Positions 35,785 to 62,677 of a stretch of 64,000 nucleotides of DNA are shown here, piece after piece (positions within the stretch are counted from its first letter, which is position 1; each line of letters opens with the position of its first letter). The stretch spans positions 930,001 to 994,000 of the forward strand of contig NZ_CP049259.1 in NCBI RefSeq assembly GCF_011047315.1. The letters are read 5' to 3'. The notes below the pieces were generated by a model. The model ran no database searches. It saw only the letters and a program-made list of their open reading frames with translations, and was not told the origin of the DNA. The DNA is from Altererythrobacter sp. BO-6 (GTDB lineage: Bacteria > Pseudomonadota > Alphaproteobacteria > Sphingomonadales > Sphingomonadaceae). A program made the translations under genes and the position numbers.

Positions 35785-37152
35785 CTATACCCCCCGCTGG
35801 TCGATCAGGCGGAGCGGCTTCTGCCGCGTGTCGATCTCGGTATCGCTGGCGGTTTCGCCCGGGCCGACCAGCCGCACTTCGACTTCGACGCCCAGCCCGC
35901 GCCGCAGCGTGTCGGCCAGTTCACCCGCGTCGCTGCCACCCCGGCTTTCCAGCGTCACCGTCATGTGATCCTTCTGGCTGGCGTCGCGGCGCAGATGGCA
36001 GACATATTCGCCGGTGAGGTCCGCACGGTTCTCGATAATCGCGCCGATCGCATGCGGGAACACGTTGATCCCGCGCAGTTTGACCATGTTGTCGCTACGG
36101 CCCTTGAAGCCGGCGATGCGCTTGAACACGATCTCGCCGAGGCCATCGAGTTCGTGCGTAATGTCATGCGTGTTGAAGCGGATGCAGGGCGCGATATCGT
36201 CCTTGTAAAGGCATGTAACGACCATGTCCCCGGTTTCGCCATGTGCCACCGGCGCGCCGCTATCGATGTCCAGCAGTTCGAGATATTGTGCGTCTTCCCA
36301 GACATACATACCCTCACGCTCCGGCCCCTCGCCCGCGATGGTGCCGGTGTCGCCCACGCCGTACCAGTCATAAGCCTTTGCGCCGTGCCAGGCGGCTTCG
36401 GTGCTGGCGCGATCCTCCGTGCCAAGATGGCCGATGATCATGCGGATATTGATCTTGTCGAACAGCCCCTCGGCCTCGGCGGTTTCCGCCAGCTTGCGGA
36501 TATAGTCGACGAAGCCGACGATCGCGGTCACCCCGAAATCGGCCATCAGCCGCACCTGGTTGACGCTGCGGGTTTCGATCCCCGTGCCGGCGGACAAGAA
36601 CACGCTGTTGGTGAAATGCGTCACCGCCTCGCGGATATAGTGCCCGCCGTTGATCATGCCGTGGCCATAGACCGAATGGACGACATCGCTCGGCTCAAGG
36701 CCCATCCAGCGGTACATCCGCCCGACCAGCAGATTGCCGACCTCGCGCCCCTTCGGCCCGAACATCAGCGTTTGCGGCTTGCCGGTGGTGCCGCTGGTGG
36801 TGTGGAAGATCGTCGGCGGGCGCGTCGCCGGATCGCCCATCCCGTGGAAGTCGCCATAGGGCGGGTAGTCCGCGATCGAGGCCATCAGGTCGCTCTTGTC
36901 GTAAACCGGCAGCTTGGTGATGTCCGCAAGGCCGCGGATGTCACCCGGCTCGATCCCCTGCGCGCCCCACAACCGCTGGTAGAACGGCACCTGCCAGCCG
37001 CGCTGCATCAGCCGCCGGAATTGCGCGTCCTGGATCGCAAAAAGCTCGTCGCGGCTCATAGATTTGTAGCGCGCGGTGAAGGCCTCGCCGATCGGGTAAT
37101 CCGATAGCAATTGCCGGTGGTCGAGCGCTTCGAAATAGGTCGGGTAGGTCAT
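35785..37152 (-). CDS. Phenylacetate-CoA ligase-like (PaaK family) acyl-CoA ligase
   Basis: A 455-residue adenylate-forming enzyme that would activate an aromatic or other acid with ATP and CoA. The P-loop-like TTSGTTGKPQTLMFGP, the DWYGVGDTG motif and the hinge-side GFKGRSDNMVKLRGINVFP are standard PaaK landmarks, and the length fits. The protein is coupled to the MmgE/PrpD gene upstream (ATGA). Substrate is unknown; PaaK relatives act on phenylacetate, coumarate-like and heterocyclic acids. It is one of three routes to CoA thioesters in this region, beside two CaiB-type transferases. Confidence 0.86.
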   Translation of the reverse strand: MTYPTYFEALDHRQLLSDYPIGEAFTARYKSMSRDELFAIQDAQFRRLMQRGWQVPFYQRLWGAQGIEPGDIRGLADITKLPVYDKSDLMASIADYPPYGDFHGMGDPATRPPTIFHTTSGTTGKPQTLMFGPKGREVGNLLVGRMYRWMGLEPSDVVHSVYGHGMINGGHYIREAVTHFTNSVFLSAGTGIETRSVNQVRLMADFGVTAIVGFVDYIRKLAETAEAEGLFDKINIRMIIGHLGTEDRASTEAAWHGAKAYDWYGVGDTGTIAGEGPEREGMYVWEDAQYLELLDIDSGAPVAHGETGDMVVTCLYKDDIAPCIRFNTHDITHELDGLGEIVFKRIAGFKGRSDNMVKLRGINVFPHAIGAIIENRADLTGEYVCHLRRDASQKDHMTVTLESRGGSDAGELADTLRRGLGVEVEVRLVGPGETASDTEIDTRQKPLRLIDQRGV

Positions 37153-38435
37153 AGGGCTTTCGTGAAATAAGCGAGAGGGTCATCGAAGATGCGCTGGTCG
37201 GCATCGGTGGGGGCGAGTTCGTGGGCGAGCGTGAATTTGGCTTCGGCTTGCGCTTCGCTCAGCGGATTGTCCGGGCTGCCGAGCGTGGCGCCGATATGGT
37301 GCCGCTGGCTGGTCCCGTCCTTGAAGGCGATGCTCAAAGCCTGCGGAAACAGGGCATTGGGGTCCTCATTGCCGTCAGGCACCAGAGCGACCTTGTCGGC
37401 GAGCGCAGCCAGCGCCGGATCGGCCATGTGTTCCGGCGTGAAGCGGCGCGGGTCGATCCGCCCGTCCGTGAGCATCAGCGCGGCGAGCCAGGGCAGGCAC
37501 AGCCGGGCATAGGCCGGGGTCATTTCGCGCAGGTAGGGCCGCGCGACGAGCCGCCGGATCAGCGGCGGGCAGGCGAGCTCGATCGTCGCGACCGCGGCAG
37601 GATCGAGCGCGAGTTCCTGCAGCTTGCCCAATGCGGCATGGCTCGCCCGGCCCGAAGGGAACGGCTTCACGCTGACTTCGGAAATCCGCCAGACCTTGCC
37701 GAGATCGCATGTATAACGCGCAAGATCACCGCGATCGAACAACTGGTAATAGCCGAATTGCCCCTCCAGCGGGTCTTTCGGCCCCGGAAACCCGGCCTTG
37801 GCCAGGTCGCTCGCCGTAACCGCTGCACGCGCGGCATTGGCGATCTGGAATGGCAGCGTGGCCAGCCCCTCGACATGCGCCTGCATCGTCCCCGCCGCCG
37901 AGGAATAGGCGATACCGAGCGTGTCATCCAGCGGCGCGCCGTCGATCCGCGCCACCGCCAGCGCGGCGCCCAGCAGGCCCGCTGTCGCCGGGCGGAAAAA
38001 GCTGAGTCCGGTATCCGCCGCAAGGCCAATGCCCGAAGCGACATCAACGCCGATCGCGAGCGCGGTGAGCGCCGCTTCGGGATCGCATCCGCCCTGCCGG
38101 TCGATTGCGGCGCCCAGCGCGGCCACCACGGTGCTGAGCGCGTGGACCACCGCAGGCTCGTGCACAGCGTCCCATTCCAGGCAATGGATGCGATAGCCGT
38201 TGACGAAGGCCGCGGCGGGTGCCGGCAAGCGCTCGTCCGTGCCGATCAGGCGCGCATCGTTGCCGCTGCCCATTGCCCGCGCGGTAGCGAGAATGGCATC
38301 CGCACCCGGTGCGTTTGCACCCGCCGCACCCACCGCCAGCGTATCGGCGAGCAACCGCAGCGCATCGGCGCGCGCTGCATCGGGCAGCACATGATCCGCT
38401 GCCGCAAAGGCGAGGAGATCGGCGGTCGCGCTCAT
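37149..38435 (-). CDS. MmgE/PrpD family protein (copy 1)
   Basis: A 428-residue member of the MmgE/PrpD family, which includes 2-methylcitrate dehydratase, cis-aconitate decarboxylase and iminodisuccinate epimerase. Landmarks are AAFVNGYRIHCLEWDAVH, the ALTALAIGVDVASGIGLA helix, AAGTMQAHVEGLATL and VKPFPSGRASHAALG. It would act on a carboxylic acid or its derivative. ATG 38435 overlaps the upstream stop (ATGA); another ATG three codons earlier (38444) is equally readable. It forms a tandem with a clearly different paralogue, so a two-subunit enzyme or two successive steps are possible. Confidence 0.83.
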   Translation of the reverse strand: MSATADLLAFAAADHVLPDAARADALRLLADTLAVGAAGANAPGADAILATARAMGSGNDARLIGTDERLPAPAAAFVNGYRIHCLEWDAVHEPAVVHALSTVVAALGAAIDRQGGCDPEAALTALAIGVDVASGIGLAADTGLSFFRPATAGLLGAALAVARIDGAPLDDTLGIAYSSAAGTMQAHVEGLATLPFQIANAARAAVTASDLAKAGFPGPKDPLEGQFGYYQLFDRGDLARYTCDLGKVWRISEVSVKPFPSGRASHAALGKLQELALDPAAVATIELACPPLIRRLVARPYLREMTPAYARLCLPWLAALMLTDGRIDPRRFTPEHMADPALAALADKVALVPDGNEDPNALFPQALSIAFKDGTSQRHHIGATLGSPDNPLSEAQAEAKFTLAHELAPTDADQRIFDDPLAYFTKAL

Positions 38436-39661
38436 CGCGTCCATTCCTCGATCAGCGTATCGAGCGCGGCAGCGTCATGCTCGTGAAGCGCCAGCGATAC
38501 CGCCTTGTGCGCTTCGCTTTCGGGCAAGCCGCCCCAGCGTGCGAGGCTGTGCATCTTGGCGATGAGTTCGCGTTCGCCGATCGGCCGTTCGGGATCGCCC
38601 AGCGTGTCCACCAGTTCCAGCCCGTTCACCCGCGCGCCGAAATGTGCCGGATAGCGCGCTGTAATCGCGGAATCTTCTGCCGCAGTCACCTGCGCCCGAA
38701 GGTCCGCGAGAGCGGCAATCGCGTCTGCCGCAAAGTCCTGCGGTTCGGCGCTGCGTCCGTCTGCCACCACGGCAATCGCATGCTGGAGCGAGAATTTGGC
38801 TTCGAGTTCGGTGGTCGGATTGGGCCGGTCGCAGAAGGCCAGCGCATCGGCATAGGTCTCGACTGTGAACGGCGGAATGAGCTTGCCCGCGGCACGCAGT
38901 TCCATCGCCGCATCGATCGCCGGATGGGCATGGCGGCAGGCAGCCCACGGTTTGAAGCTGACCTGGTCGATCAGCCAGCCATCGCCATTGTTCGCCAATT
39001 CGCCGGGCTCGCGCGTCATCGCGGCAAACAGCCCTTGCGGCCCCTCGAGGATCGCTTGCGGCCCGGTTGCGCCGTAATGCACATGCAGCGCCGCATCGCG
39101 CCCGGTCCGCACCGCATGGTGGATATGCCACTGCTTTGTCAGCACATCCTTGTCATGCCGCATGTGCCATAGACCGCCCGCGACCGAACCGGCATTGCCC
39201 AGCGCGTTGGCGTATTCGATCGGCGCAAAACCGATCAGTGAACCGAACGCGGCACAGGCGCCGAACAGGCCCATGGTCGCGGTAGGGTGCCAATGGGCAT
39301 AGTGGTGCGCATCGAACGCCGCGCCGATCGCGATCATCGCTTCATAACCGCGCACCGCTGCATCAAGCCGCTGATCGAGCGAAGCACTGGGCAGGCTCAT
39401 CGCCGTAGGCCAGATCACTGGCCCGGGATGGAGCAGCGCGGTGCGATGGACATCGTCCATCTCCAGCACATTGCCGAGATAGGTTGCGCGCTCCCACCCC
39501 TGGCTCGAAATTGCGCCGCTCAGCGCGCCCGCTTCGCTGTTTCGGGCGCCCGCGATGCAAGCGAGCCAATCGAGCAGGTGCAAACGTGCACGGTGGCGCT
39601 CGCTTTTGCCAACGGGCCGCGCTATTGTCCGGACAAGTTGAGCCAGCAGCGGGTCGCTCAT
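38432..39661 (-). CDS. MmgE/PrpD family protein (copy 2)
   Basis: A 409-residue MmgE/PrpD protein. It shows DWLACIAGARNSEAGAL, the VLEMDDVHRTALLHPGPVIW block with the conserved Asp and His, AHWHPTATMGLFGACAA and VSFKPWAACRHAHPAIDAA. It is first in the leftward operon that runs to 30119. ATG 39661 gives the family start; the frame opens at 39709 but would overlap the regulator gene. The palindrome TTGTCCGGACAA lies inside its codons 9-13, so its own transcription may start further upstream or be blocked by the bound repressor. Substrate unknown. Confidence 0.83.
   Translation of the reverse strand: MSDPLLAQLVRTIARPVGKSERHRARLHLLDWLACIAGARNSEAGALSGAISSQGWERATYLGNVLEMDDVHRTALLHPGPVIWPTAMSLPSASLDQRLDAAVRGYEAMIAIGAAFDAHHYAHWHPTATMGLFGACAAFGSLIGFAPIEYANALGNAGSVAGGLWHMRHDKDVLTKQWHIHHAVRTGRDAALHVHYGATGPQAILEGPQGLFAAMTREPGELANNGDGWLIDQVSFKPWAACRHAHPAIDAAMELRAAGKLIPPFTVETYADALAFCDRPNPTTELEAKFSLQHAIAVVADGRSAEPQDFAADAIAALADLRAQVTAAEDSAITARYPAHFGARVNGLELVDTLGDPERPIGERELIAKMHSLARWGGLPESEAHKAVSLALHEHDAAALDTLIEEWTR
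39625..39636. promoter_or_regulatory. TTGTCCGGACAA operator-like palindrome, copy 1
   Basis: A perfect 12-base palindrome of the GT-N4-AC type favoured by HutC-like GntR regulators. It lies 55 bases before the GntR gene ATG at 39691 and inside the start of the divergent MmgE/PrpD gene. Four more exact copies occur at 45439, 45476, 47232 and 47274. Probable autoregulatory site. Confidence 0.7.
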
Positions 39662-39690
39662 GCGCGCACTCCCGTCATGGCCGAGGGTTG

Positions 39691-40485
39691 ATGGAGCAAA
39701 GGTTGGCAACGAAGGCCAAAACCAAATCGAGTGCGGACAAAGCGGCCAAGCAAGGACGCATGCCGCGCTATCTCATGCTTGCGGCCGAATTGCGCGAAGC
39801 GATCCTGGCCGGCCAATTTGCCGGTGGAGAACAGTTTCCGACCGAGACGGCGCTGTGCCAGCGCTATGACGTCAGCCGCTTTACGGTTCGCGAGGCGCTG
39901 CGCCGGCTTGAAGCGGAAGGGCTGATTGCCCGCAAGCGTGGTTCTGGCACCACGGTGCAACCGCCCGCCGCCCGCGGAGGGGCACTGCACCAGCCGCTCT
40001 CCAACGTCGGCGAATTGCTGCAATATGCGCGCGGCAGTGCGGTGATCTATCGTCCGGCGGGGCAGGGCCCGCTGCCAGCCGAGATCGCGGAGCAGATCGC
40101 GCCCGACACGACGGGGAGCTGGACGATGTTCAGCGGCCTGCGCCAGCAGGACATCGGCGCCAAACCGATCGCGGCGACCACCGCCTATTTCCATGAGCGG
40201 CTCGGCGATGCGATCGAAGCGCTGGACCTCAATGCCAGCCCCAAGACACTGTTCAGTCAGGTGGAAGAACTGACCGGGGTCAGCGCAAGCACAGTGACGC
40301 AAGATATCCAGGCGATCGCGGCCAATGACGAAATCGCCAAGGCGCTCGACGTGGAACCCGGCAGCCCCGTTCTGCAAATCCTGCGTTGCTATATCGACCG
40401 CAAAGGCCAGGTGTTCGAAATCTCCGTGAGCCACCACCCCGGCGATCGCTTCGCCTACGCGATGCACATCGACATCGAGGGATAG
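39691..40485 (+). CDS. GntR family transcriptional regulator, HutC/UTRA type
   Basis: A 264-residue regulator. After a Lys-rich N-terminal tail the winged helix-turn-helix is seen in RYLMLAAELREAILAGQF, PTETALCQRYDVSRFTVREA and RLEAEGLIARKRGSGTTV. The C-terminal UTRA ligand domain includes PKTLFSQVEELTGVSAST, EIAKALDVEPGSPVLQI and VSHHPGDRFAY. HutC-type proteins are usually repressors that bind GT-N4-AC palindromes and let go on binding a small acid or sugar. It lies alone on the plus strand between two leftward operons, with a TTGTCCGGACAA site 55 bases before its ATG. It is the best candidate to control the whole right-hand cluster. A TTG start at 39703 is a weaker alternative. Confidence 0.86.
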   Translation: MEQRLATKAKTKSSADKAAKQGRMPRYLMLAAELREAILAGQFAGGEQFPTETALCQRYDVSRFTVREALRRLEAEGLIARKRGSGTTVQPPAARGGALHQPLSNVGELLQYARGSAVIYRPAGQGPLPAEIAEQIAPDTTGSWTMFSGLRQQDIGAKPIAATTAYFHERLGDAIEALDLNASPKTLFSQVEELTGVSASTVTQDIQAIAANDEIAKALDVEPGSPVLQILRCYIDRKGQVFEISVSHHPGDRFAYAMHIDIEG

Positions 40486-40493
40486 CATACAGG

Positions 40494-41606
40494 TCACGCG
40501 GGCCGCTTCACCAATGGCGGAACGTCGCCCGGCGCCCAGTCCTCGCCGACAAAGCGGATTGCCGGCGCGATGTGCCTGCCACCGCCCTCGCCGGCGACCC
40601 ACAACCCGCGTTCGGCAATATGAGGCTCGTCCAGCGCTTCGCGGAAATCGAGCACCGGGGCGAAGGCGACGTCCTTGTCCGCGAACCACTGGACCCATTC
40701 GTCGCGGGTCTTCGTGGCAAAGGTTGCGCGCAGGAAAGCGATCAGCTCGCCTTGCTCTCCCGCCGGTGCTTCAGCCAGAGGCAACAGGTCCTCGCGCCCC
40801 AATGCGGTGAGCAGGTTCTTCGCGAATTTGAGCTCGCGCCCGCCCAGCGCGACATGCTGGCCATCGCTGGTCTTGTAGACCTGGTAAAAGGCCGCGCCGC
40901 CAAGCGAACGCTGCGAGGCCGATTTCGGGCTCGGCCCGCCAGCAATGGCGCTACCCGCGGTGTGCACGCACCACGGCAGCAGGCTGTCGAACATGGCACA
41001 GTCGATATAGGCACCCTCGCCCGTTCGCTCGCGCCCCACCAGCGCCATCAGCACGGCCGAAAGCGCAGTCAGCCCGGCGGCCATGTCCGCGCTTGGCGCG
41101 CCCGGCACCACCGGCGTGCCGTCAGGCCCGTCATTCACGGCAAGGAAGCCCGCCAGCGCCTGCACCGCCATATCATGCGCGGGGTGATGCGCCAGCGCGC
41201 CATGCTGCCCGAAGGCCGAGATCGAGCAATAGACGATGTCGGGCTTGAGCGCCTTGACGCTGTCATAGTCAAAGCCCAGCCGCGCCATCACGCCGGGTCG
41301 GAAGCCCTCGACGAACACATCGGCGCGGGCGATCAGGTCGCGCAGCGCCGCCGTGCCTTCGTCGCTCTTGAGGTCGAGCACGACGCTGGTTTTGCCGCGG
41401 TTGAGATTGGCGAACCACACCGAATGCTCGGCCCCTTCACCAGCTGGGCCATAGGTGTCGAACGGGGCCTGCTCACGCGCCGGATCGCCCGCTGCCGGTT
41501 CCACCTTGATCACTTCGGCGCCCTGATCGGCCATCATCACCGTCATCATCGGCCCGGGCAGGAACTGCGTCAGGTCGACCACCGTGATGCCAGTCAGCTT
41601 GCCCAT
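40494..41606 (-). CDS. CaiB/BaiF-type CoA-transferase (copy 1)
   Basis: A 370-residue family III CoA-transferase. It has the N-terminal GITVVDLTQFLPGPMMTVMMADQGAEVIKVE pattern in its usual parts, NRGKTSVVLDLKS, the Rossmann-like FRPGVMARLGFDYDSV, and the catalytic Asp in GAPSADMAAGL. It would move CoA from a donor thioester to a carboxylic acid by an aspartyl-CoA intermediate. It is the last gene of the leftward operon that starts at 45379. The paralogue at 41627 differs strongly, so different acids or a heteromeric enzyme are possible. Confidence 0.86.
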   Translation of the reverse strand: MGKLTGITVVDLTQFLPGPMMTVMMADQGAEVIKVEPAAGDPAREQAPFDTYGPAGEGAEHSVWFANLNRGKTSVVLDLKSDEGTAALRDLIARADVFVEGFRPGVMARLGFDYDSVKALKPDIVYCSISAFGQHGALAHHPAHDMAVQALAGFLAVNDGPDGTPVVPGAPSADMAAGLTALSAVLMALVGRERTGEGAYIDCAMFDSLLPWCVHTAGSAIAGGPSPKSASQRSLGGAAFYQVYKTSDGQHVALGGRELKFAKNLLTALGREDLLPLAEAPAGEQGELIAFLRATFATKTRDEWVQWFADKDVAFAPVLDFREALDEPHIAERGLWVAGEGGGRHIAPAIRFVGEDWAPGDVPPLVKRPA

Positions 41607-41626
41607 GTCTCCGTCATTCCCCCGCT

Positions 41627-42844
41627 TCAGATGGTGCCGCTGTGACGCAGCCCGGCAATCTTCTCGGCGTCGTAGCCGAGTTCTGCAAGGATCGCATCGC
41701 TATCAGCGCCCAGCAGCGGGGCGGCACGATTGGGCGGGCGCTGCCCGTCGAACTTCAGCGGGCTGGCGAGGATCTGCAAGTGCGGATTGTCAGGATGGGC
41801 CACTTCATCGCGCAGGCCGATTTCCCGCAGCCACGGATTATCGAGCGCGGCGCCCAGTGTATAGACTGGCGCCACCGGCACATGGCCGGCCAAAAGCTCC
41901 TGCCAGTAGGCCATCGGCTGCTTCACGAATTCGGCATCGAGCAGCGCCGTAAGCTCGTCACGGTGCGCCAGCCGGTCGGCATTGCTGGCGAAGCGCGGAT
42001 CGGCTTTCAGGTCGTCGCGCCCCATCCGGTCACACAGGATGTCCCAGAACTTGGGCAGCTGGCACATCACGAACATCCAGCCATCGGCCGCCTTGAACAT
42101 CTGGCTGGGAGTCGCCGTCGGATGCGCGCTGCGCGGCGTGCGCTGGGTCTCGTCGCCATGGTTCATGTACCACAGCGCGGGATAGCTGGTCTGGTGCAAT
42201 GCGGCGCTGAGCAGATCGGTATCGACATCGCGTCCCTTGCCGCTGCGCTGCGCGTCGACCAGCGCCCCCAGCAAGCCGATGCAGAAGATCGTGCCGGTGA
42301 TGAAATCGACCATCGACAGGCCCATCCGCTGCGGATCGCCGCCCGGCTCGCCGGTCATCTGGCAATAGCCTGCCTCGGCCTGCATAAGATAATCGTAGCC
42401 CGGCCATTTGGCGCGCTTGTTGTCGCGACCATAGGCGGAAAGGTGCGCGCAAACGATCGCAGGGTTCACATCCTTGAGCGCGGCATAGTCGAGCCCCAGC
42501 CGCGCCGGCAGGTCGCCGCGCATGTTATTGGCGACGACATGGCTGCGCTCGACCAGCCGGTGGAGCACTTCCTGCCCCTCGGCGGTGTTGAGATCGAGCG
42601 TGAGCGAACGCTTGTTGAGGTTGAAACTTTGGAAATAAGTGCTTTCGCCCTCGCGCAAGAAATGTGGGCCCACGGCGCGCGCCGTGTCGCCGCCACCGCG
42701 CTTTTTTCCATCTGGACCGTTCTTGGACGGCGGTTCGATCTTGATGACCTCCGCCCCCATCTGGGCGAGGAACATCGTCCCATAGGGTCCTGCGCCATAT
42801 TGTTCGGCGCTGATGACACGGAATCCGGAAAGCGGAAGGTTCAT
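41627..42844 (-). CDS. CaiB/BaiF-type CoA-transferase (copy 2)
   Basis: A 405-residue family III CoA-transferase with GFRVISAEQYGAGPYGTMFL, KIEPPSKNGPDGKKRGGGD, FNLNKRSLTLDLNT and the candidate catalytic Asp in RMGLSMVDFITG. The C-terminal half carries TPSQMFKAADGWMFVMC and LREIGLRDEVAHPD. ATG 42844 begins it; GTG two codons upstream is in frame. It follows the acyl-CoA dehydrogenase by 13 bases. Together with the dehydrogenase, hydratase and lyase it could activate and break down a branched dicarboxylic acid. Confidence 0.85.
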   Translation of the reverse strand: MNLPLSGFRVISAEQYGAGPYGTMFLAQMGAEVIKIEPPSKNGPDGKKRGGGDTARAVGPHFLREGESTYFQSFNLNKRSLTLDLNTAEGQEVLHRLVERSHVVANNMRGDLPARLGLDYAALKDVNPAIVCAHLSAYGRDNKRAKWPGYDYLMQAEAGYCQMTGEPGGDPQRMGLSMVDFITGTIFCIGLLGALVDAQRSGKGRDVDTDLLSAALHQTSYPALWYMNHGDETQRTPRSAHPTATPSQMFKAADGWMFVMCQLPKFWDILCDRMGRDDLKADPRFASNADRLAHRDELTALLDAEFVKQPMAYWQELLAGHVPVAPVYTLGAALDNPWLREIGLRDEVAHPDNPHLQILASPLKFDGQRPPNRAAPLLGADSDAILAELGYDAEKIAGLRHSGTI

Positions 42845-42857
42845 GCCCACCGCGCCC

Positions 42858-44042
42858 CTAGATCGGGTTCTCCTTGATATGCTGGCGGGCGATAATGATC
42901 CGCTGCATCTCGTTGGTCCCCTCGCCGATGCACATCAGCATGCTGTCGCGGTAATAGCGTTCGATGTCGTATTCCTTGGAATAGGAATAGCCACCGTAAA
43001 TGCGCATCGCCTCCTGGCTGTTTTCGACCGCTGCTTCCGAAGCGAAATACTTCGCAATACCCGCTTCCTTGTCGCAGCGTTCGCCGCGATCATAGGCTTC
43101 CGAGGCATCAAGCGTCAGCAGCCGTGCGGCGCGGGCGCGCGTCACCATCTCGCCGAGCTTCAGCTGGATCGCCTGGTGCTGCGCGATCGGCTTGCCCATG
43201 GTTTCGCGCTGCTGCGCGTATTCGGTCGCCAGCCGCAGCGAGCCTTCGGCCAGCCCCACGCCGCGCGCGGCCACGTTGATGCGGCCCAGTTCCAGCCCGC
43301 CTGTCGCCTGGAAGAAGCCCTGCCCTTCGACCCCGCCGATCAGCTGGTCGGCCGGAATGCGGTAATTGTCGAAAATCAGCTCGGCGCTGTCGATCGACTT
43401 GTAACCCAGCTTGTCGAATTTCTTGCCGGTGGTGAATCCGTCACGCTTGTCGGCGATGAACAGGCTCATCCCCTTGTAGCGCGGTTCAGCCGCCGGATCG
43501 GTCTTGACCAGCAATGCGAAGCAGGATCCGTTGAGCGCATTCGAAATCCACGTCTTGGTGCCGTTGATCACGTAATGATCGCCGTCGCGCACTGCGGTGG
43601 TGCGGATCGCCTGCAGGTCGGTGCCGGCATTGGGCTCGGTCAGCGCCAGCCCGCCGCGAATCTCTCCGCTGGCGAATTTGGGCAGCCACTTGGCCTTTTG
43701 CTCGGGCGTGCCGAAGCGTTCGACCGCCGCCGCCATGATCAGGTGCGAATTGAAAATGCCGGTGATCGCCATCCAGTAGCTGGAAATGCGCATCACGATC
43801 TTGGCATAGGTCGTCGCCGGCAGGCCCAGCCCGCCATATTCCTGGCCGATAGTGGCACCGAACAGGCCCATTTCCGACATCTGCTCGACCAGCTTTTCCG
43901 GCCAGATGTCGTTGTGGTCATGATGCTGGATCACCGGGATCACTTCACGCTCCAGCCAGCGGTCGATCGCGTCCATGAAGGCGCGTTCCTCATCCGGGTC
44001 GATCGTGCGGATCTGGTCGTCAAACTTGGGGGCGGTAGCCAT
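42858..44042 (-). CDS. Acyl-CoA dehydrogenase family protein
   Basis: A 394-residue FAD-dependent acyl-CoA dehydrogenase. The domain order is the N-terminal helices (EERAFMDAIDRWLEREV), the FAD-binding strand segment ALTEPNAGTDLQAIRTTA, NGTKTWISNALNGSCFALL, the QRETMGKPIAQHQAIQ helix and the C-terminal IYGGYSYSKEYDIERYYRD. The catalytic Glu is the one in IGEGTNEMQR. It would desaturate a CoA thioester, such as a succinyl-type or short branched substrate, before hydration by the MaoC protein next to it. ATG 44042 is ten bases after the MaoC stop. Confidence 0.87.
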   Translation of the reverse strand: MATAPKFDDQIRTIDPDEERAFMDAIDRWLEREVIPVIQHHDHNDIWPEKLVEQMSEMGLFGATIGQEYGGLGLPATTYAKIVMRISSYWMAITGIFNSHLIMAAAVERFGTPEQKAKWLPKFASGEIRGGLALTEPNAGTDLQAIRTTAVRDGDHYVINGTKTWISNALNGSCFALLVKTDPAAEPRYKGMSLFIADKRDGFTTGKKFDKLGYKSIDSAELIFDNYRIPADQLIGGVEGQGFFQATGGLELGRINVAARGVGLAEGSLRLATEYAQQRETMGKPIAQHQAIQLKLGEMVTRARAARLLTLDASEAYDRGERCDKEAGIAKYFASEAAVENSQEAMRIYGGYSYSKEYDIERYYRDSMLMCIGEGTNEMQRIIIARQHIKENPI

Positions 44043-44052
44043 GGGAAAATCC

Positions 44053-44562
44053 TCAGTCGTCGAGATTGCCGAAGCCGCGCTTCCATACGAGTACGGTGCG
44101 CTTGTAATGCGCGACCACATCGCCGTGCTGGTTCTTGGCGATGGTCTTGAAGGTCACGATGCCCTGTTCGGGGCGGCTCTTGCTTTCGCGCTTTTCCAGC
44201 ACTTCGCTTTCGCAATAAAGCGTGTCGCCAACGAACAGCGGCTTGGTCATCCGCACTTCGTCCCAGCCGAGATTGGCGATCGCCTTGCCGCTGGTGTCGG
44301 ACACGCTCATGCCCGTCATCAGCGCGATGGTGAACGGGCTGACCACCAGCGGTTTGCCGAATTCGGTATCTTTCGACAGCTCATAGTCGAAATGCGCCGG
44401 GTGGGTGTTCATCGTCAGCAGCGTGAACCACACATTGTCGGCATCGGTGATGGTCCGTCCGGGCCGATGTTCATAGACATGGCCTTCCACGAAATCCTCG
44501 AAATAGCGGCCCTGCACCTCGCGGAAGCGACCGGGGGCAACTTCGATAACACCGTCACGCAT
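44053..44562 (-). CDS. MaoC family dehydratase/hydratase
   Basis: A 169-residue hot-dog fold hydratase. The catalytic Asp and His are in the segment TITDADNVWFTLLTMNTHPAHFD, and LVVSPFTIALMTGMSVSDTS and LFVGDTLYCESEVLEKRES are typical of mesaconyl- or itaconyl-CoA hydratase-like members. It overlaps the CitE-type lyase gene by eight bases. In combination these two would hydrate an unsaturated CoA ester and split the product by a retro-Claisen step. Substrate not proven. Confidence 0.84.
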   Translation of the reverse strand: MRDGVIEVAPGRFREVQGRYFEDFVEGHVYEHRPGRTITDADNVWFTLLTMNTHPAHFDYELSKDTEFGKPLVVSPFTIALMTGMSVSDTSGKAIANLGWDEVRMTKPLFVGDTLYCESEVLEKRESKSRPEQGIVTFKTIAKNQHGDVVAHYKRTVLVWKRGFGNLDD

Positions 44563-45379
44563 TTGCTTGTCCTTTGCTGCGCGCGATCACCGCGCGATAA
44601 GTCTTGATCATCGGGGCTTCGAGCATGCGGCCCTTGTGCCGCACCGCCTTGCCGCCGGTTTCCTCGTAAACACGCAATGCCTCTTCTGCTTCGGCGATCT
44701 CCGCTTCGGTGGGCGAAAAGGCGGCTTCGATCGCAGGGACCTGGCGCGGATGGATCGCGGCCTTGGCGGAGATCCCGATCGCCCGCGCAGCCTCGCATTC
44801 GCGCTCGAGCCCTGCGTCATCGTCGAGGTGGATGAAGGGCACGTCGATCAGTGGTTTGCGCGCCTCGGCACAGGCCAGCACCAGCTGCTGGCGCGCGGCG
44901 AGCAGCGGTTCCCACGATACGGCCACGCGCAACTCGCCAGAGAAGTCCGCCCCACCGAACATCAGCGCGCAGACCTGCGGGTGGCTGACGATTGCCAGCG
45001 CGCTGCGCAACCCTCGCGGCGTTTCGATCAGCGGGATCAGCTGCGGGCAGCGATCGCCAAGCGCGCTCGCGACGATATCCAGCTCAGTCGCGGTTTCGAC
45101 CATCGGTACCATCAGGATCGCGGGCAGCACGTCGGCTTCGGTCAAAGCGGCAAGGTCGCGAATCCCGGCGGCGGTTGTCACGGCATTGATGCGGATGGCA
45201 AAGCCTTCACCCGCCTCGGCCACCTGCTGCAACGCAGCGGCGCGCGCGCTTTCCTTGTCGGCCGGGCCGACCGCATCCTCAAGGTCGATTACCACCAGCC
45301 CGGCACCGGCAGCAGCCGCTTTCGCAAAGCGATCTGGCCGCGAACCCGGCACGAACAAGAGGCTGGAAGCTGCAAACAT
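44555..45379 (-). CDS. HpcH/HpaI (CitE-like) CoA ester lyase
   Basis: A 274-residue TIM-barrel lyase of the malyl-CoA/citramalyl-CoA type. Landmarks are LLFVPGSRPDRFAKA, VVIDLEDAVGP with the acidic metal ligand, FAIRINAV, LIPLIETPRGL, LMFGGADFSGEL and AKAAIHPRQVPAI. It would cleave a 3-hydroxyacyl-CoA such as citramalyl- or methylmalyl-CoA to acetyl-CoA or propionyl-CoA and a 2-oxo acid. ATG 45379 is chosen by family start; the frame opens in the promoter at 45487. First gene of its operon; a TTGTCCGGACAA site lies 60 bases upstream. Confidence 0.86.
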   Translation of the reverse strand: MFAASSLLFVPGSRPDRFAKAAAAGAGLVVIDLEDAVGPADKESARAAALQQVAEAGEGFAIRINAVTTAAGIRDLAALTEADVLPAILMVPMVETATELDIVASALGDRCPQLIPLIETPRGLRSALAIVSHPQVCALMFGGADFSGELRVAVSWEPLLAARQQLVLACAEARKPLIDVPFIHLDDDAGLERECEAARAIGISAKAAIHPRQVPAIEAAFSPTEAEIAEAEEALRVYEETGGKAVRHKGRMLEAPMIKTYRAVIARSKGQANA

Positions 45380-45436
45380 GCGAATAGATCGAGTCCCGAT
45401 TGAGGCCCGCAAAAGCGGGGAAATTGTCGCTTCACA

Positions 45437-45452
45437 ATTTGTCCGGACAAAT
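45437..45452. promoter_or_regulatory. TTGTCCGGACAA operator-like palindrome, copy 2 (16-base extended)
   Basis: A perfect 16-base palindrome whose core is 45439-45450. It lies 60 bases before the CoA ester lyase ATG, and its centre is 37 bases from the next copy at 45476. Probable site for the GntR regulator at 39691. Confidence 0.72.
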
Positions 45453-45475
45453 CTAATGTCAAGCGAAATGCGGAG

Positions 45476-45487
45476 TTGTCCGGACAA
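45476..45487. promoter_or_regulatory. TTGTCCGGACAA operator-like palindrome, copy 3
   Basis: A perfect 12-base palindrome 31 bases before the DUF1838 gene ATG at 45518. With copy 2 it frames the divergent promoter region between the lyase operon and DUF1838. Confidence 0.72.
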
Positions 45488-45517
45488 TTTATGCCGTCAC
45501 CGAAAGGGAGAGTATCG

Positions 45518-46441
45518 ATGAAATCTTTGAAAGCGCGTTTGGTTGCAGCCGCCCTGCTGACGGGAGCCGCGCTTGCCGGCCAGCCCGTGCTGGCCCAGAC
45601 GCTTGACCCAGCCAAGCCTGAAGATGCGCTGGAAATCGCCAAGCGCATCCAGTGCGGCGAGGCCGACGGCAAGCCTGCAGTCTATCACTGGGCGGGCAAT
45701 GTCTATTCGCGCGTCATGGGTGAACCCGATCGCCTGCTGTTCAAGGGCGAAGGCATGAACATCCGCACCTGCGTTTCGGTGACCGATCCCAAACGCGGCA
45801 AGGGCTGGCGCATGGTCAGCCGCGAAATCATGCTCTACCTCGACCCCAAGACCGGTGAGGTCCTGCGCCAGTGGGACAATCCCTGGACCGGCGAAACGGT
45901 GGAGGTGATGCATATCGCCAACGATCCGGTCAACCAACGCGCGCAGTTCCCCTATGCTGCGGATGGCACGCCCTATAAGTTTGCCGGGCGGCGCGAGGGG
46001 CGCTGGATCTTCTCCCCGTTCGAAATCCCGCTGTTCTATCACAACGTCCTGGGCGGCGATTACCAGGACTATGTGGGCGGCAAGTACCACGCGATGGAAA
46101 TCTTCGATTTCGCTTATGATGCCGACGAAATGCTCAACCCCAGAAAGCATCCGATGGCTTATCCGATCGTGTCGTGGGTGCGGATTTCGGACTGGATGCC
46201 ATGGATGAAGATGCGCGGCCGCCAGGGACAGATGGTGTTCAACGCGATGGGCAACAAGCTGAAAAGCTTCGACGAACTGCCTGCCGTGCTGAAAGACGAG
46301 ATCGCGCTGAACTATCCGGATTACACCACCGCGCCGCCGGTTGATGACGCACGTCCCAACGAAACCACTTGGACCGTCTTCAAGAAGAAGGTCGATGCAC
46401 AGCGCGCCGCTTCGGGTGATGCGCCCAAGACCGGACACTAA
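45518..46441 (+). CDS. Exported DUF1838 family protein
   Basis: A 307-residue protein with a Sec signal (LVAAALLTGAALAGQPVLAQ). The body carries DUF1838 wording: HWAGNVYSRVMGEPDRLLF, GMNIRTCVSVTDPKRGKGW, REIMLYLDPKTGEVLRQW, NPWTGETVEVMHIANDPVN and VLGGDYQDYVGGKYHAMEIF. The family has no known function but recurs in sphingomonad catabolic clusters. The ribosome binding site AAAGGGAG precedes ATG 45518. A promoter-proximal TTGTCCGGACAA copy suggests co-regulation with the CoA pathway. Expected location is the periplasm. Confidence 0.84.
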   Translation: MKSLKARLVAAALLTGAALAGQPVLAQTLDPAKPEDALEIAKRIQCGEADGKPAVYHWAGNVYSRVMGEPDRLLFKGEGMNIRTCVSVTDPKRGKGWRMVSREIMLYLDPKTGEVLRQWDNPWTGETVEVMHIANDPVNQRAQFPYAADGTPYKFAGRREGRWIFSPFEIPLFYHNVLGGDYQDYVGGKYHAMEIFDFAYDADEMLNPRKHPMAYPIVSWVRISDWMPWMKMRGRQGQMVFNAMGNKLKSFDELPAVLKDEIALNYPDYTTAPPVDDARPNETTWTVFKKKVDAQRAASGDAPKTGH

Positions 46442-46453
46442 GTATGCCGGCAG

Positions 46454-46481
46454 GGCTCCAGTCGGGCAACCGACTGGAGCC
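46454..46481. terminator. Bidirectional terminator-like hairpin
   Basis: A perfect 12-base stem (46454-46465 with 46470-46481) and GCAA loop between the convergent ends of the DUF1838 gene and the membrane-protein gene. No strong T run on either side, but the position and stem length fit a shared terminator. Confidence 0.75.
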
Positions 46482-46485
46482 TCGC

Positions 46486-47169
46486 TCAATAGATTGGCTT
46501 CACATTGCCCAGGAAGGCCGTGACCAGCAGCAATAAATAGACCGCCCAGACCCATATGCGGGTGCGGTCCATCGTCCGGCGCAGCGGGATCTCGGTCTCG
46601 TCGCTCGACCCTTCAGTCAGCAGGCGCCCCAATTGCGCGCCGACCGGCTTGAAGGCGACATCGATCATGATCGCAGCGGCGAAAATCAACCCGAACAGCA
46701 AGGCCTTCCACGCCAGCCAGTCAGGCTCGATCGGATGGTTGGTCAGCAGCGATTCCGCGCCCAGGAACAGATAGCCGGCACAAAGAAGGTAGCGGATCCA
46801 CCCTTCGATCTTGCGGTCGCGCGCCGCACGCGGGGTCATGTCATGGTTGTGGGCGTCGAACACCAGCCACAGCCAAACGGCGGCAATGGCCCAGCCGAAC
46901 AGGACAATCGCCAGCGGCAAATCCCACCAGCCCCCCATGTAGGACACCGTCAGCGATATCGGCACCATCAACGCCCAGGCGGTGCGCGGGGTGAGATCGA
47001 TGATCACCAGCAGCTTGAGCAAGGCGATCCGCTGGTCGAGCGTATAGGTTTCGCGGCGGCGAAAATGCTGGCCGAGCACAAACACCCCGACGTCAGCCCC
47101 CAGCCACAGCACGAACAGCAAAAGATGCACGTAAACCAGCGTCGGGTAAGCGAAATCCGCAAGCGCCAT
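46486..47169 (-). CDS. Integral membrane protein, about six helices, unknown family
   Basis: A 227-residue protein with several hydrophobic segments, for example TLVYVHLLLFVLWLGADVGV, the PLAIVLFGWAIAAVWLWLVF stretch, WLAWKALLFGLIFAAAIMID and the C-terminal WVWAVYLLLLVTAFLGNV. Charged linkers such as HNHDMTPRAARDRKIEGW lie between them. A His near the first helix and another in HNHD could bind haem or metal, which is speculation. ATG 47169 starts just upstream of the first helix; the open frame extends to 47265 through the operator. A TTGTCCGGACAA site lies 63 bases upstream, so it belongs to the cluster regulon. It may be an inner-membrane electron carrier or transporter. Confidence 0.72.
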   Translation of the reverse strand: MALADFAYPTLVYVHLLLFVLWLGADVGVFVLGQHFRRRETYTLDQRIALLKLLVIIDLTPRTAWALMVPISLTVSYMGGWWDLPLAIVLFGWAIAAVWLWLVFDAHNHDMTPRAARDRKIEGWIRYLLCAGYLFLGAESLLTNHPIEPDWLAWKALLFGLIFAAAIMIDVAFKPVGAQLGRLLTEGSSDETEIPLRRTMDRTRIWVWAVYLLLLVTAFLGNVKPIY

Positions 47170-47228
47170 TTGAGCCCCCTTCAAGCAAAACTGTTGCGCG
47201 AACGGCACGCCGCGCGACCGATCACTAC

Positions 47229-47246
47229 AAATTGTCCGGACAATTT
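47229..47246. promoter_or_regulatory. TTGTCCGGACAA operator-like palindrome, copy 4 (18-base extended)
   Basis: A perfect 18-base palindrome around the core 47232-47243, the longest of the five copies. It lies 60 bases before the membrane-protein ATG at 47169. Its centre is 42 bases, about four helical turns, from copy 5. Confidence 0.75.
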
Positions 47247-47273
47247 GCATTTCTGCGCTTGACAAGCAAGAGG

Positions 47274-47285
47274 TTGTCCGGACAA
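47274..47285. promoter_or_regulatory. TTGTCCGGACAA operator-like palindrome, copy 5
   Basis: A perfect 12-base palindrome 75 bases before the TonB receptor ATG at 47360. Together with copy 4 it would control the divergent promoter pair. Confidence 0.72.
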
Positions 47286-47359: not shown

Positions 47360-49937
47360 ATGACGCTGCGTAAAACGACCAAGCTGGCACTGGCCGGCGT
47401 GACTTCTGCAATTGCTATTGCCGCCATCCCAACCACCGCATCGGCACAGGATGAAGCCGCCGCTGAAGAGGAACAGCGCGGCATCAACAATATCATCGTG
47501 ACTGCGCAGCGCCGCGAGGAAAGCGTGCAGGATGTGCCAATCGCCATCAGCGCCTTCAATCAGGCCGAGCTTGAGACGCGCGGCGTCACCAGCGCGCTGG
47601 AAGTGGCGCAGTTCGTGCCCAACCTCGTCGGCCTCAACAACACCGGCCTCGGCACCGCCAATTCCTATTACCTGCGCGGCATCGGCAACACCGAATCGAT
47701 CGCGACCTTCGATCCGCCGATCGGCACCTATGTCGATGACATCTACATCTCCCGCCAGAACGCCAACAACCTGTCATTCTTCGATGTCGAACGGGTTGAG
47801 GTGCTGCGCGGCCCGCAAGGCACGCTGTTCGGCCGCAACACCACCGGCGGTGCGGTCAATGTGTTCCTGTCGGAACCGGGCGACGAAGTGTCGGGCTATG
47901 CCGAAGTCGGCTATGGCAGCTACGAGCGGATGATGGCGCGCGCTTCGGTCGACCTGCCGCTGGCGGACAGCTTCGCGATCAAGGTTTCGGGCTATTGGCA
48001 GAATGACGATGGCTACGCGAAGAACACGTTCACCGGCGAACGCGTCAACGAGAATGACGGCTGGGGCCTGCGCCTTGGCCTGCGCGGCAAACTGTCCGAC
48101 ACCGCCCGCTGGACCGGTTCCTACATCCACACGTTCGCGGATTCATCGAACATTCTCAATTTCGATTGCGACCCGCTCGATCCATCGAATTGCAGTGGCC
48201 GCTTCGTTTCCACCGGCCTGAGCAAGAACGGCTCGTTCAATGGCTTGCTGACCGGCAAGAAGAATGATTTCGGACTGGGCAACGAAGCGACGATGGATTT
48301 CGTCAGCTCCAACTTCGAATTCGAAGTGTCGCCGGATGTGTCTATCAACGTGATCACCGGCTTCGTTTCGATCCGGCAGGATTTTGCGCTGGACTTTGCC
48401 GACGGCCGCGGCCTGCCCGGCATCACCGCACCCGTGCCGGCGCTGTTCCTGCCTGGCACGCCGCCGGTGCCTTCACGTTACACCTTCGGCGCATTTACCA
48501 TCGCCAACGAAGGCCAGCATGACCAGTTCACGCAGGAAGTGAAGTTCAACGCCTCGCTCGGCGATGGCCTGATCGACCTGGTCGGCGGCGTCTATTATTT
48601 CCAGGAATGGAACACGACCGACTTCGGCGATATCTTCACCTTGCCCTTCGCCCCGCCGCCGAACGGCTTCCCCTTCGTGCTGGCAGACCGCACGCTGAAG
48701 AACGAAGCCAAAGCCTGGGCAGGATATCTCCAGGGTGACCTGAACGTCACCGAACGGCTCACCGTCACCGCGGGCATCCGCTACACGGATGAGGAAAAGA
48801 CCTTCAACATCCGCGACAACCGCGCTTCGTGCAATGACGGCACGATTGAAGCCGGCTGCCTCGACAACAGCAACCTTTTCGTCGACGTGCCGCTGGTTCC
48901 GCAGCGGGTGAACATTCCCGCGCAAGCAAAGCGTGGGCCTGTGGACCCCGCGTTTTGCGATAAACTACGAAGCGGCGGACGACATCCTGCTGTTCGCCTC
49001 AGCCACCCGCGGGTTCAAGTCAGGCGGCTGGAACGCACGCGGCACAGCGGGACGACAATTGCTGCCGTTCGATCCCGAAATCGCCTGGAGTTACGAAGTC
49101 GGCGCCAAGACCACGCTGTTCGACAACCTCGTGCGGCTCAATGTCACAGGGTTCTGGCTCGACGTGCAGGATCTCCAGACCCCGTCCGCTTTCACTAACC
49201 CCGACGGATCGCTGGCCTTCATCACCCGCAACTTCGCCGACTATCGCAACAAGGGCGTGGAAGTGGAATTCCAGACCGCGCCGGTTGACGGGCTCAACCT
49301 GTTCGCCTCGCTTGGCTACCAGGATGACAAGTACATCATCGATCGCAATGCTCCGGCGCGCGACTTGTTCGGGGTGCAGTCGGTTGCCGCACAGCAGGCA
49401 GCCTGCCTTGCGGAACTGGCCGCGGGCCGCATTCCTGGCGGGCCGACCGGCGCCACCGATCCGCGCCGGTTCGACACCGCGCCCAATTGCGGCACCGGCA
49501 TCGTGACGCCCGACGGTTCGATCGCAGAGCCGGTGCGTACGCCCGACTGGACGATCGCACTGGGTGGCAGCTACGAAGCCGAAATGGGCGATTTCTCGCT
49601 CATTCCCGCAATCAACGCCAACTGGCGCAGCGACAGCGAAGTCGGCACCAGCCAGGTGACGCTGTATGACGGCGACGTCACCGGCCCTGTCACGAACATC
49701 GTCTATCCGGCCAACATCCAGGGGATCGGCAACCGTATCGATCCGGCCAGCGGATCGTTCAGTCCGGCGCGCTGGATCGTCAACGCCTCGCTGACGCTGA
49801 GCCATGTCAATGGCTGGTCGCTGGTGGCCGAGTGCAAGAACTGCTTCGGAGAGGAGGCGGTGGAATCCGCACTGGCCAATTACAGCTACCTCAATGCGCC
49901 GCGCACCTGGATGCTGCGGGCCAAGTACGACTTCTGA
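47360..49937 (+). CDS. TonB-dependent receptor (small-molecule type), single-base frameshift
   Basis: About 858 residues after repair. The signal peptide ends TTASAQDE, then the plug begins NNIIVTAQRREESVQDVPIA with AISAFNQAELETRG, NSYYLRGIGNTESIATFDPP, VDDIYISRQNANNL, VEVLRGPQGTLFGRNTTGGAVN. One extra A near 48924-48927 shifts the frame; repair joins NIPAQA to SVGLWTPRFAINYEA. The barrel then runs to the C-terminal LRAKYDF. The style is that of receptors linked to aromatic or other small substrates in sphingomonads, unlike the sugar receptor at 25694. It heads a coupled rightward operon and has an operator copy upstream. It would bring the substrate of the whole cluster across the outer membrane. 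Confidence 0.86.
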
Positions 49938-59887: not shown

Positions 59888-60342
59888 GGCTCGATCTTCC
59901 ATTCGTCGCACAGCGTGCGCTTCCATGGGCGCCCGTCCTTGAACCATTGCCAGGTCCGTGCGCGGCTCTGCCCGTCGGGCGCGATGTTGATCATCTCGAT
60001 GTAGTACGCGCCGGGAACATCGAGCCGGTCAAGCTTCAGCATCAGCGTGTTCTCGCCGGTCTGCCAGCCATAGCCGCTGAAGCGGTCGGTTGCCCAGAGC
60101 AGCCGCTCGCCTTTCAGCCGGCCGCCGAATTCATAGGTCGCCTCGCGCCCGTCATCCCAGCTGAGCCAATTGTGCTGGATATAGTGCCAGGGGCCGTCAT
60201 CGGGGAATTCGCAGTGGGTCTTCACCCTGTGCGCGTCAATCGGTGTCCCGTCTGCCTCGAAATGGCGATACCAGCCGTCCCACCAGCCTTCGTGCAGCAG
60301 CATGGCGGGCATCACGGCGGCGAGTTCGGCCCGGTTGCCCAT
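59884..60342 (-). CDS. Conserved protein, lipocalin-like, unknown function
   Basis: A 152-residue Trp-rich protein (LLHEGWWDGWYRHFEADGTP, WHYIQHNWLSWDDGREATYEF, SRARTWQWFKDGRPWKRTL). The alternation of long strands suggests a small beta-barrel such as a lipocalin or DUF3598-like domain, but I do not recognise it. It shares one base with the aldehyde dehydrogenase stop and overlaps the DUF1330 gene by four bases. Could bind the pathway substrate. Confidence 0.62.
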   Translation of the reverse strand: MGNRAELAAVMPAMLLHEGWWDGWYRHFEADGTPIDAHRVKTHCEFPDDGPWHYIQHNWLSWDDGREATYEFGGRLKGERLLWATDRFSGYGWQTGENTLMLKLDRLDVPGAYYIEMINIAPDGQSRARTWQWFKDGRPWKRTLCDEWKIEP

Positions 60343-61760: not shown

Positions 61761-62677
61761 GCCTGCTGCTCCTCCCATGCCGAAGCTATCGCGCTACCGG
61801 AAGCGAACCATGCCTCTTCGCGCCCGGCCAGATCGTCAAGGAGATCCTCCAGCGCAGCAATGCGGAACGGTTGCCCCATGATGTATGGGGTCAGCTGAAT
61901 GGGCAAGACACGAGCGGAGGACTGTGCCGCCGCCTCATCCGCCAGCCAGTCAAAGGCATCGCGCATCATTTGCGCCCAGGCCTCGGCCGAATGCTGCTGG
62001 ACCGCGACGATCTGCTGGTCCGACAGGTCAACGCTCGATGGCATGGCGATCATCCCGTTGGCAAAGCGATAGGGCAGCTCGTCATTGACCCAATCGGCGC
62101 ACCACGTCAGCCCGTGCTCTTTCAGCAGGTCGAGCGTACGCCAGCTTTGCGAGCGTGCGATCGAATGCCACCCCCTGGCCTTCGTGCCAGTGGCCGCTTC
62201 CAGCCGCGCCTGCGCGTCAGCGATCAGCGCGCGTTCGTCTTCCTCGCTCATCGAAGACGCGATGGTGCCATTCATATCGGTGGAATGCGCGACGATCTCG
62301 TGCCCGCCCGCCTTTACCGCGTCGATCAGCGCGCCATAGCGTTCTGCCACGGCGGCATTGATCGCAAAGCTGGCCGTAACCCCGGCCTTGTCCAGCGCTT
62401 CGAGGATGCGGAACACGGCCACCCGGTTGCCATAGTCGCGCACTGTGTAATGGCGATAATCGGGATAGGGCGTGACCATGTGGCCCGGTGCGCGAAACGG
62501 CTGGTCAGTGGGCGTGATCGGGAAATATTCCAGATTGATGGTCAGGAATACGGCGACCGATCTGTCCCCCGGCCAGCGCACCGGCGGGCGCGTGTGGATA
62601 TTGGACCAGGTGTAGAAATCGTGGTCATAGCCTTCCCCGCGCCGGGGATACTGCGTGTATTCGTCGGGAAGGCTCAT
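61757..62677 (-). CDS. Polysaccharide deacetylase family protein, PuuE-like (copy 2)
   Basis: A 306-residue NodB-fold protein. The motif-1 segment reads FLTINLEYFPI and the motif-2 segment reads EIVAHSTDMNGTI, so the metal-binding DD and the HxxxH spacing of deacetylases are changed. IARSQSWRTLDLLKEHGLTW and QLTPYIMGQPFRI follow. It pairs head-to-tail with copy 3 through an ATGA overlap. The two may form one enzyme or act in sequence on related amides. Confidence 0.82.
   Translation of the reverse strand: MSLPDEYTQYPRRGEGYDHDFYTWSNIHTRPPVRWPGDRSVAVFLTINLEYFPITPTDQPFRAPGHMVTPYPDYRHYTVRDYGNRVAVFRILEALDKAGVTASFAINAAVAERYGALIDAVKAGGHEIVAHSTDMNGTIASSMSEEDERALIADAQARLEAATGTKARGWHSIARSQSWRTLDLLKEHGLTWCADWVNDELPYRFANGMIAMPSSVDLSDQQIVAVQQHSAEAWAQMMRDAFDWLADEAAAQSSARVLPIQLTPYIMGQPFRIAALEDLLDDLAGREEAWFASGSAIASAWEEQQA

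Follow-up and report, generated by a model that had tools for sequence, protein, structure and literature searches.

The window analyzed here is a stretch of 64,000 nucleotides of the Altererythrobacter sp. BO-6 chromosome. It carries genes for a TonB-dependent receptor, for several coenzyme A (CoA) enzymes and for a GntR-family regulator (gntR, whose product is designated P0001), and among these genes lie five exact copies of the 12-base palindrome TTGTCCGGACAA (operators 1 to 5 in the table below). On the evidence of sequence comparisons, it is highly probable that this palindrome is the operator of P0001, a HutC-subfamily GntR protein predicted to control a large uptake-and-breakdown cluster.

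The palindrome and its gene cluster

All five copies listed in an initial annotation of this DNA are present, and the assertion that they are far above chance also holds. Base composition predicts 0.0026 copies of TTGTCCGGACAA per window and 0.12 per genome, and 100 dinucleotide shuffles of the window yielded none. A scan of the window allowing one mismatch revealed no site beyond the five exact ones, and at two mismatches a single further site appears, at 31641. Within a 99 kb segment, TTGTCCGGACAA is the only 12-base palindrome that occurs at least three times. The perfect palindromes at the five sites are 12, 16, 12, 20 and 12 bases long in coordinate order, and the extended form of the operator is AATTTGTCCGGACAAATT. 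Thus, of the two extended palindromes described earlier as 16 and 18 bases, the first length was right but the second is 20. Recomputing the centre spacings of the two paired sets returned 37 and 42 bases, as annotated. The sites lie before the genes that had been assigned to them, with the correction that operator 1 sits inside the reading frame of an MmgE/PrpD-family gene.

The chromosome (3,035,715 bases in one contig, where genome coordinates equal window coordinates plus 930000) contains eight exact copies, all located between 969625 and 1012760, a distance of ∼43 kb. Seven of these are intergenic according to a simple gene caller. The many unrelated copies that were to be looked for in a genome-wide scan are not found, as all eight copies belong to the cluster. 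Because three of them (at 994307, 1003420 and 1012760) fall outside the window, the predicted regulon reaches beyond it. The original proposal of a GntR regulon is therefore supported, but its extent must be amended. Matches with one mismatch elsewhere in the genome number four, and a control with the reversed pattern likewise gives four. Since such sites are no more frequent than in the control, the regulon looks confined to the cluster, and a wider regulon in the same genome was rejected.

The site at 994307, just outside the window, is 11 bases from the ATG of an alpha/beta-hydrolase operon and also precedes the isochorismatase-like operon that diverges from it. Another of the outside sites is 17 bases before a methyltransferase gene, and another separates the genes of an MFS transporter and a second TonB receptor. 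Within the window, the TonB receptor 3′ of operator 5 is divided between two frames that overlap, reflecting an apparent frameshift here or a sequence error.

Table. Predicted operators and genes of the cluster, in window coordinates. Start codons are from the simple gene caller; the gntR start was taken as the ATG at 39691, and the HpcH ATG at 45379 was chosen by eye.
Feature	Position	Strand	Remarks
Predicted operator 1, TTGTCCGGACAA	39625..39636		5′ end of MmgE/PrpD frame, 54 bases before gntR ATG; weakest site
Predicted operator 2	45439..45450		16-base palindrome; before HpcH/CitE-type CoA-lyase operon
Predicted operator 3	45476..45487		30 bases before DUF1838 gene
Predicted operator 4	47232..47243		20-base palindrome; before membrane-protein gene
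Predicted operator 5	47274..47285		before TonB-receptor gene
gntR (P0001), HutC-subfamily regulator	39691..40485	+	GntR winged helix-turn-helix PF00392 and UTRA PF07702
HpcH/HpaI (CitE/RipC-like) CoA lyase	44555..45379	-	first gene of predicted regulated operon
MaoC-type hydratase	44053..44562	-	
Acyl-CoA dehydrogenase	42858..44042	-	
CaiB/BaiF (class III) CoA-transferase	41627..42844	-	
Second class III CoA-transferase	40494..41606	-	operon end
DUF1838 protein	45518..46441	+	
Membrane-protein-like frame	46486..47169	-	by eye; no Pfam match
TonB-dependent receptor, first part	47360..49198	+	appears (by eye) continued at 48933-49937 in other frame
MmgE/PrpD-family gene	38432..39661	-	divergent from gntR; contains operator 1; start codon 39661
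Second MmgE/PrpD-family gene	37149..38435	-	
Phenylacetate-CoA-ligase-like protein	35785..37152	-	probable later gene of MmgE/PrpD operon
Aldehyde dehydrogenase and two polysaccharide-deacetylase/allantoinase-like genes	60342..63552	-	probable later genes of isochorismatase-like operon

Placement of the sites and predicted mode of action

The sites retain their positions before the same genes in alignments of nine genomes of the genus, the window's own included. The lyase-side site (operator 2) is conserved in all nine, within 21 identical bases. At one mismatch or fewer, operators 4 and 5 are exactly 42 bases apart in eight genomes, and the ninth (G005) has one site. The second site of the DUF1838 pair is present at the same stringency in six of the nine, with spacings of 37, 39, 39, 39, 40 and 40 bases. 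Before the isochorismatase/hydrolase genes, and likewise before the methyltransferase gene, a lone site is kept in each of the eight genomes aligned (the nine less G005). The flanks of the 64 sites in the nine genomes are AT-rich. In other genera the order of the genes has changed, and the sites still stand before orthologs of the HpcH, membrane-protein, TonB and DUF1838 genes. In G038, a genome from another family, five of the six exact sites adjoin orthologs of the isochorismatase, TonB/membrane, HMGL/CaiB, aconitase and g51 genes, and a site with one mismatch is found next to that genome's own gntR (34% identity).

Seven relatives (G004, G025, G027, G030, G034, G035 and G036) have an extra TonB receptor between the DUF1838 and membrane-protein genes that is absent from the window. 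This receptor carries a TTGTCCAGACAA-type one-mismatch operator.

Candidate promoters, called by eye against the consensus, overlap several of the sites. A conserved TTGAC begins 12 bases before operator 2, on the lyase side; a conserved TTGACA begins 15 bases before operator 5, on the TonB side; and a TTGACA begins 28 bases before the operator at the methyltransferase gene. A dimer bound at such positions would cover the spacer, the −10 element or the start point, which makes repression the most likely mode of action. We infer a mechanism in which a P0001 dimer would bind each palindrome with one winged helix per half-site. When located on the −35/−10 region, it would keep RNA polymerase off its target promoters, namely those of the TonB importers, the MFS transporter and the catabolic operons for the CoA lyase, hydratase, acyl-CoA dehydrogenase, CoA-transferases, allantoinase-like and isochorismatase-like hydrolases, and methyltransferases. 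A substrate or pathway intermediate that occupies the UTRA domain would then release the protein.

It is unlikely, although more plausible than the other alternatives considered below, that P0001, as the right regulator of these sites, activates transcription, or activates some promoters and represses others. The constant 42-base spacing of operators 4 and 5 could reflect co-operation, since constant spacing has been taken as a sign of co-operative pairs (Suvorova et al., PMC4494728). Moreover, the conserved TTGACA of the isochorismatase/hydrolase region is 45 bases before the site. However, at the lyase, TonB and methyltransferase promoters the operator comes after the conserved TTGAC and before the expected start, so that a protein bound there would obstruct the polymerase. 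The spacing in the other divergent region drifts from 37 to 39 and 40 bases, and paired sites act separately in the control divergons described in PMC4494728. Repression by P0001 thus remains the preferred mode.

The regulator and the palindrome across genomes

P0001 combines an N-terminal GntR winged helix (PF00392, 76 bits; cut-off 27) with a C-terminal UTRA effector domain (PF07702, 62.8 bits; cut-off 23.8), and the domain search found no match to FCD, the mark of the FadR subfamily. It is the sole UTRA protein among the four GntR proteins of the genome that score over the cut-off. The other three were rejected as binders: two have FCD domains, and one has 112 residues with the GntR domain alone. 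The GT and AC of TTGTCCGGACAA are four bases apart (GT-CCGG-AC), the gap reported for most HutC-subfamily sites (PMC4494728). Both the domains and the gap agree with the earlier statement that GT-N4-AC is a form bound by HutC-type regulators.

The nearest solved structure is that of NagR (YvoA) from Bacillus subtilis, a GntR protein of the HutC subfamily and a full-length sequence relative of P0001. Like the dre sites of NagR, TTGTCCGGACAA is a palindrome with GT-N4-AC geometry. NagR contacts the G of GT with a conserved arginine, Arg48, and the base before GT with Arg38 (PMC4333415). When the two proteins are aligned, Arg63 of P0001 falls at the Arg48 position and is therefore kept, whereas Thr53 takes the place of Arg38. 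Because Arg38 of NagR reads the base before GT, this replacement matches the T, instead of G, found there in TTGTCCGGACAA. The centre of the site is likewise different, CCGG and not CTAG. More generally, arginine at the first of these positions prefers G/C at the base before GT, and methionine after the second arginine goes with A/T centres, a trend that is not significant (PMC4494728). P0001 has threonine at the first position and phenylalanine after Arg63; in its putative operator, T precedes GT and the centre is CG. The predicted reading residues thus differ from those of NagR where the operator bases differ. Among 33 ortholog rows (at least 41% identity), the first position is filled by Ser, Thr, Ala or Gly and in no case by Arg, and Arg63 is followed by Phe or Tyr, with His once.

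The presence of the palindrome follows that of the regulator gene. Within the genus, 10 of 37 genomes encode an ortholog (63–100% identity), and these contain 8, 6, 2, 1, 6, 6, 5, 5, 5 and 5 copies of TTGTCCGGACAA. Two of the 27 genomes without an ortholog have one copy each, and 25 have none. Two or more copies are found in 9/10 genomes with the ortholog versus 0/27 without it (Fisher 8e-8). Across the order (296 genomes), an ortholog that is at least 41% identical, a cut chosen after the list was seen, is present in 26 genomes, all of which have at least one copy and 24 of which have at least two (23/25 if G139, discussed below, is left out). Of the 270 genomes without an ortholog, 27 have a copy and four (G202, G105, G038 and G048) have at least two, giving 24/26 versus 4/270 (Fisher 5e-29). 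Both Fisher values overstate certainty because related genomes are not independent. In addition, the order-wide search scored at most eight candidates per genome, and some homologs may be missed; the homologs in G038 and G048 are 34–37% identical. Named records with the ortholog belong to Erythrobacter, Altererythrobacter, Porphyrobacter, Novosphingobium and Parasphingopyxis.

Two smaller observations concern genomes in this survey. Single exact copies with AT-rich flanks occur in G039, G045, G051 and G056 (L013-L016), with a short-chain-dehydrogenase (SDR) homolog near those of G045 and G051. These four genomes encode elsewhere ∼30% homologs with His after the recognition arginine, and possibly have a small related regulon. 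The cluster of G006 (L080) looks decayed, with full-length orthologs of gntR and one CoA-transferase, one operator, and matches to MmgE/PrpD and to the second CoA-transferase that are partial.

The same comparisons make it very unlikely that the palindromes are operators of another protein of the neighborhood. Candidates are the FCD-type GntR at 13813-14514, an Lrp/AsnC protein at 4788-5264, and a LysR-like protein called by eye at genome position 1005289, each of which is within ∼35 kb of a site. An Lrp homolog also flanks sites in G004 and G030. Yet Lrp does not track the motif across 61 genomes, where its closest orthologs (79–89%) are in G002 and G008, both with 0 copies, and this candidate was rejected for lack of association. 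Searches within the cluster stretches of relatives returned no hit for the FCD-type gene and few LysR-like hits, only 25–36% identical. By contrast, each of the nine relatives in the genus that have the ortholog carries gntR in its cluster stretch.

Least credible is a reading in which TTGTCCGGACAA has nothing to do with transcribing the cluster and is instead a structural or iterated palindrome of these genomes. The scattered copies of G139, with GC-rich flanks, and their absence from its congener might suggest it. In the window's genome, however, every exact copy is in one cluster and seven of the eight are intergenic, the sites in the nine aligned genomes have AT-rich flanks and conserved positions relative to genes, and two of the G139 copies themselves precede TonB/membrane and MaoC orthologs. 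G139 is from the same family as the window's genome and has 36 exact copies spread over 3.4 Mb on both contigs (109 at one mismatch or fewer). The 15 contexts examined have GC-rich, coding-like flanks, and G325, its only congener examined, has 0 copies. Thus, many scattered copies, which had been named as grounds for abandoning the regulon, are not found in the window's own genome but do exist in a relative. The G139 pattern resembles a highly iterated palindrome with the very sequence predicted as operator for that genome's own GntR ortholog.

The association of the palindrome with the cluster genes was also examined starting from the motif. In a class-wide sample of 240 genomes, 29 from other orders carry the motif besides the window's own, and all 29 were inspected at every site with its flanks. 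Ten (G517, G391, G498, G519, G357, G485, G338, G470, G529 and G446) have an ortholog of a cluster enzyme in the stretch, which in several cases directly follows the site. The criterion, chosen while the results were being read, required, anywhere in the stretch, an ortholog at least 56% identical to the acyl-CoA dehydrogenase, to MaoC or to the first polysaccharide deacetylase. GntR homologs (29–36%) occur within the stretches of G517, G391, G498, G485, G529 and G446. G339, which has only a GntR homolog (31%, with Ser after the Arg) beside the site, was left out of the ten. The motif stretches of the remaining 19 genomes contain no acyl-CoA dehydrogenase, MaoC or deacetylase ortholog. Chance copies of about that order are expected, given ∼0.1 per genome for the window's own genome, though genome sizes and compositions differ.

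A number of observations, including the scattered copies of G139, weigh against P0001 as the regulator of these sites. G202 (two copies) and G105 (three) have no P0001 hit at 1e-20 among the candidates scored. G006 and G322 hold the ortholog and one copy each, and the copy in G322 is >1 Mb from gntR. One extra copy distant from the cluster is found in each of G027, G239 and G264, and that of G027 has no cluster gene beside it. The sixth exact site of G038 is without a recognized neighbor. None of the four copies in G048 adjoins a cluster enzyme ortholog, two of them preceding TonB-like genes only, and its 36% homolog has no site with one mismatch or fewer beside it. From the motif-first sample, the stretches of G519, G338 and G470 lack a GntR homolog. 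The recognition signature is firm only within the order and looser outside it, as judged from aligned residues. Beyond the order, the first position of the best homolog is Lys in G529 and G517, Gly in G391, Gln in G498 and Ala in G446, with His or Tyr in the second. Ile or Met occupies the second position in the homologs from the stretches of G485 and G357 and in another homolog of G498. In G093 the two reading positions are Thr and Tyr, yet the genome has no exact site. The G048 sites and this looser signature beyond the order slightly lowered our confidence in P0001 as the regulator.

The site nearest gntR must be viewed with similar caution. Operator 1 was described as preceding the GntR gene, and its distance from the gntR ATG is consistent with this, but the site is within the MmgE/PrpD frame and has few counterparts. 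We compared 48 distinct gntR upstream regions of 330 bases, own included, with identical ones dropped. The best palindrome match has no more than one mismatch in eight regions (own, L118, L123, L125, L126, L127, L150 and L167), no more than two in 13 and no more than three in 17. Because the other 31 regions, a further point on the negative side, have no counterpart within three mismatches, autoregulation via 39625 would vary between species. It is only a possibility, and the weakest of our claims.

Known systems and the predicted pathway

Repressors of the HutC subfamily that control a local catabolic regulon are well known, and the mechanism is ordinary. As in the HutC-subfamily divergons described by Suvorova et al., single or paired sites with a 4-base gap occupy divergent regions. 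P0001 shares its subfamily with HutC, the histidine-utilization repressor, and HutC regulons of Sphingomonadales are reported to include a TonB transporter (PMC5343134). Unlike HutC proper, P0001 scores 88 bits with TIGR02018, below the cut-off of 220, and no hut gene was recognized among the annotated targets. The HutC consensus in PMC4494728, NyGTMTAKACNy, has a TA centre that the exact sites, with CG, do not match; this is a consensus and not a defining feature. The annotated targets also differ from those of NagR in that they are not GlcNAc genes.

Narrow literature searches did not find the operator, the regulator group or the pathway; the papers returned were, judged by title, about other subjects than this cluster, and a listing for iterated palindromes held nothing of use. 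The only match to the motif string was, by its listing, a Drosophila stem cell paper, and the only match to DUF1838 was, again by its listing, a paper on a Streptomyces antibiotic cluster. Named entries within the best 120 of 1116 listed regulator relatives are called only GntR-family or HTH-type regulators.

Hints to the substrate come from family and structure searches and are at the level of enzyme class: a PuuE-like allantoinase, an N-carbamoylsarcosine-amidase-like protein, a RipC-like lyase and a LeuC-like isomerase. Only broad subfamily models were passed at their cut-offs, those for the 3-isopropylmalate dehydratase large subunit and hydroxymethylglutaryl-CoA lyase. We tentatively propose, at somewhat less than even odds for the two parts jointly, that P0001 founds an undescribed HutC-subfamily group and that it governs an undescribed catabolic route found across several alphaproteobacterial orders. 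The group would be marked by a residue other than Arg at the position of NagR Arg38, by SR followed by Phe, Tyr or His, and by the operator TTGTCCGGACAA. In the route, allantoinase-like and N-carbamoylsarcosine-amidase-like enzymes together with CoA enzymes might degrade a nitrogen-containing branched compound imported through TonB receptors.

An exact 12-base tag allows the gene set of an unassigned pathway to be read from the genome, and motif-first picks in other orders recovered the same enzymes in 10/29 genomes. The unassigned DUF1838 family and an unannotated membrane protein are thereby tied to a pathway, and the question of the substrate becomes a testable one: which compound releases the repressor? 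Since motif and reading residues deviate jointly from the pattern known so far, these orthologs also provide a natural data set for the recognition code of GntR proteins.

The second GntR-family gene of the window, which encodes the FCD-domain protein mentioned above, adjoins a short-chain-dehydrogenase-like frame and sugar-catabolism-like frames, as judged by eye.

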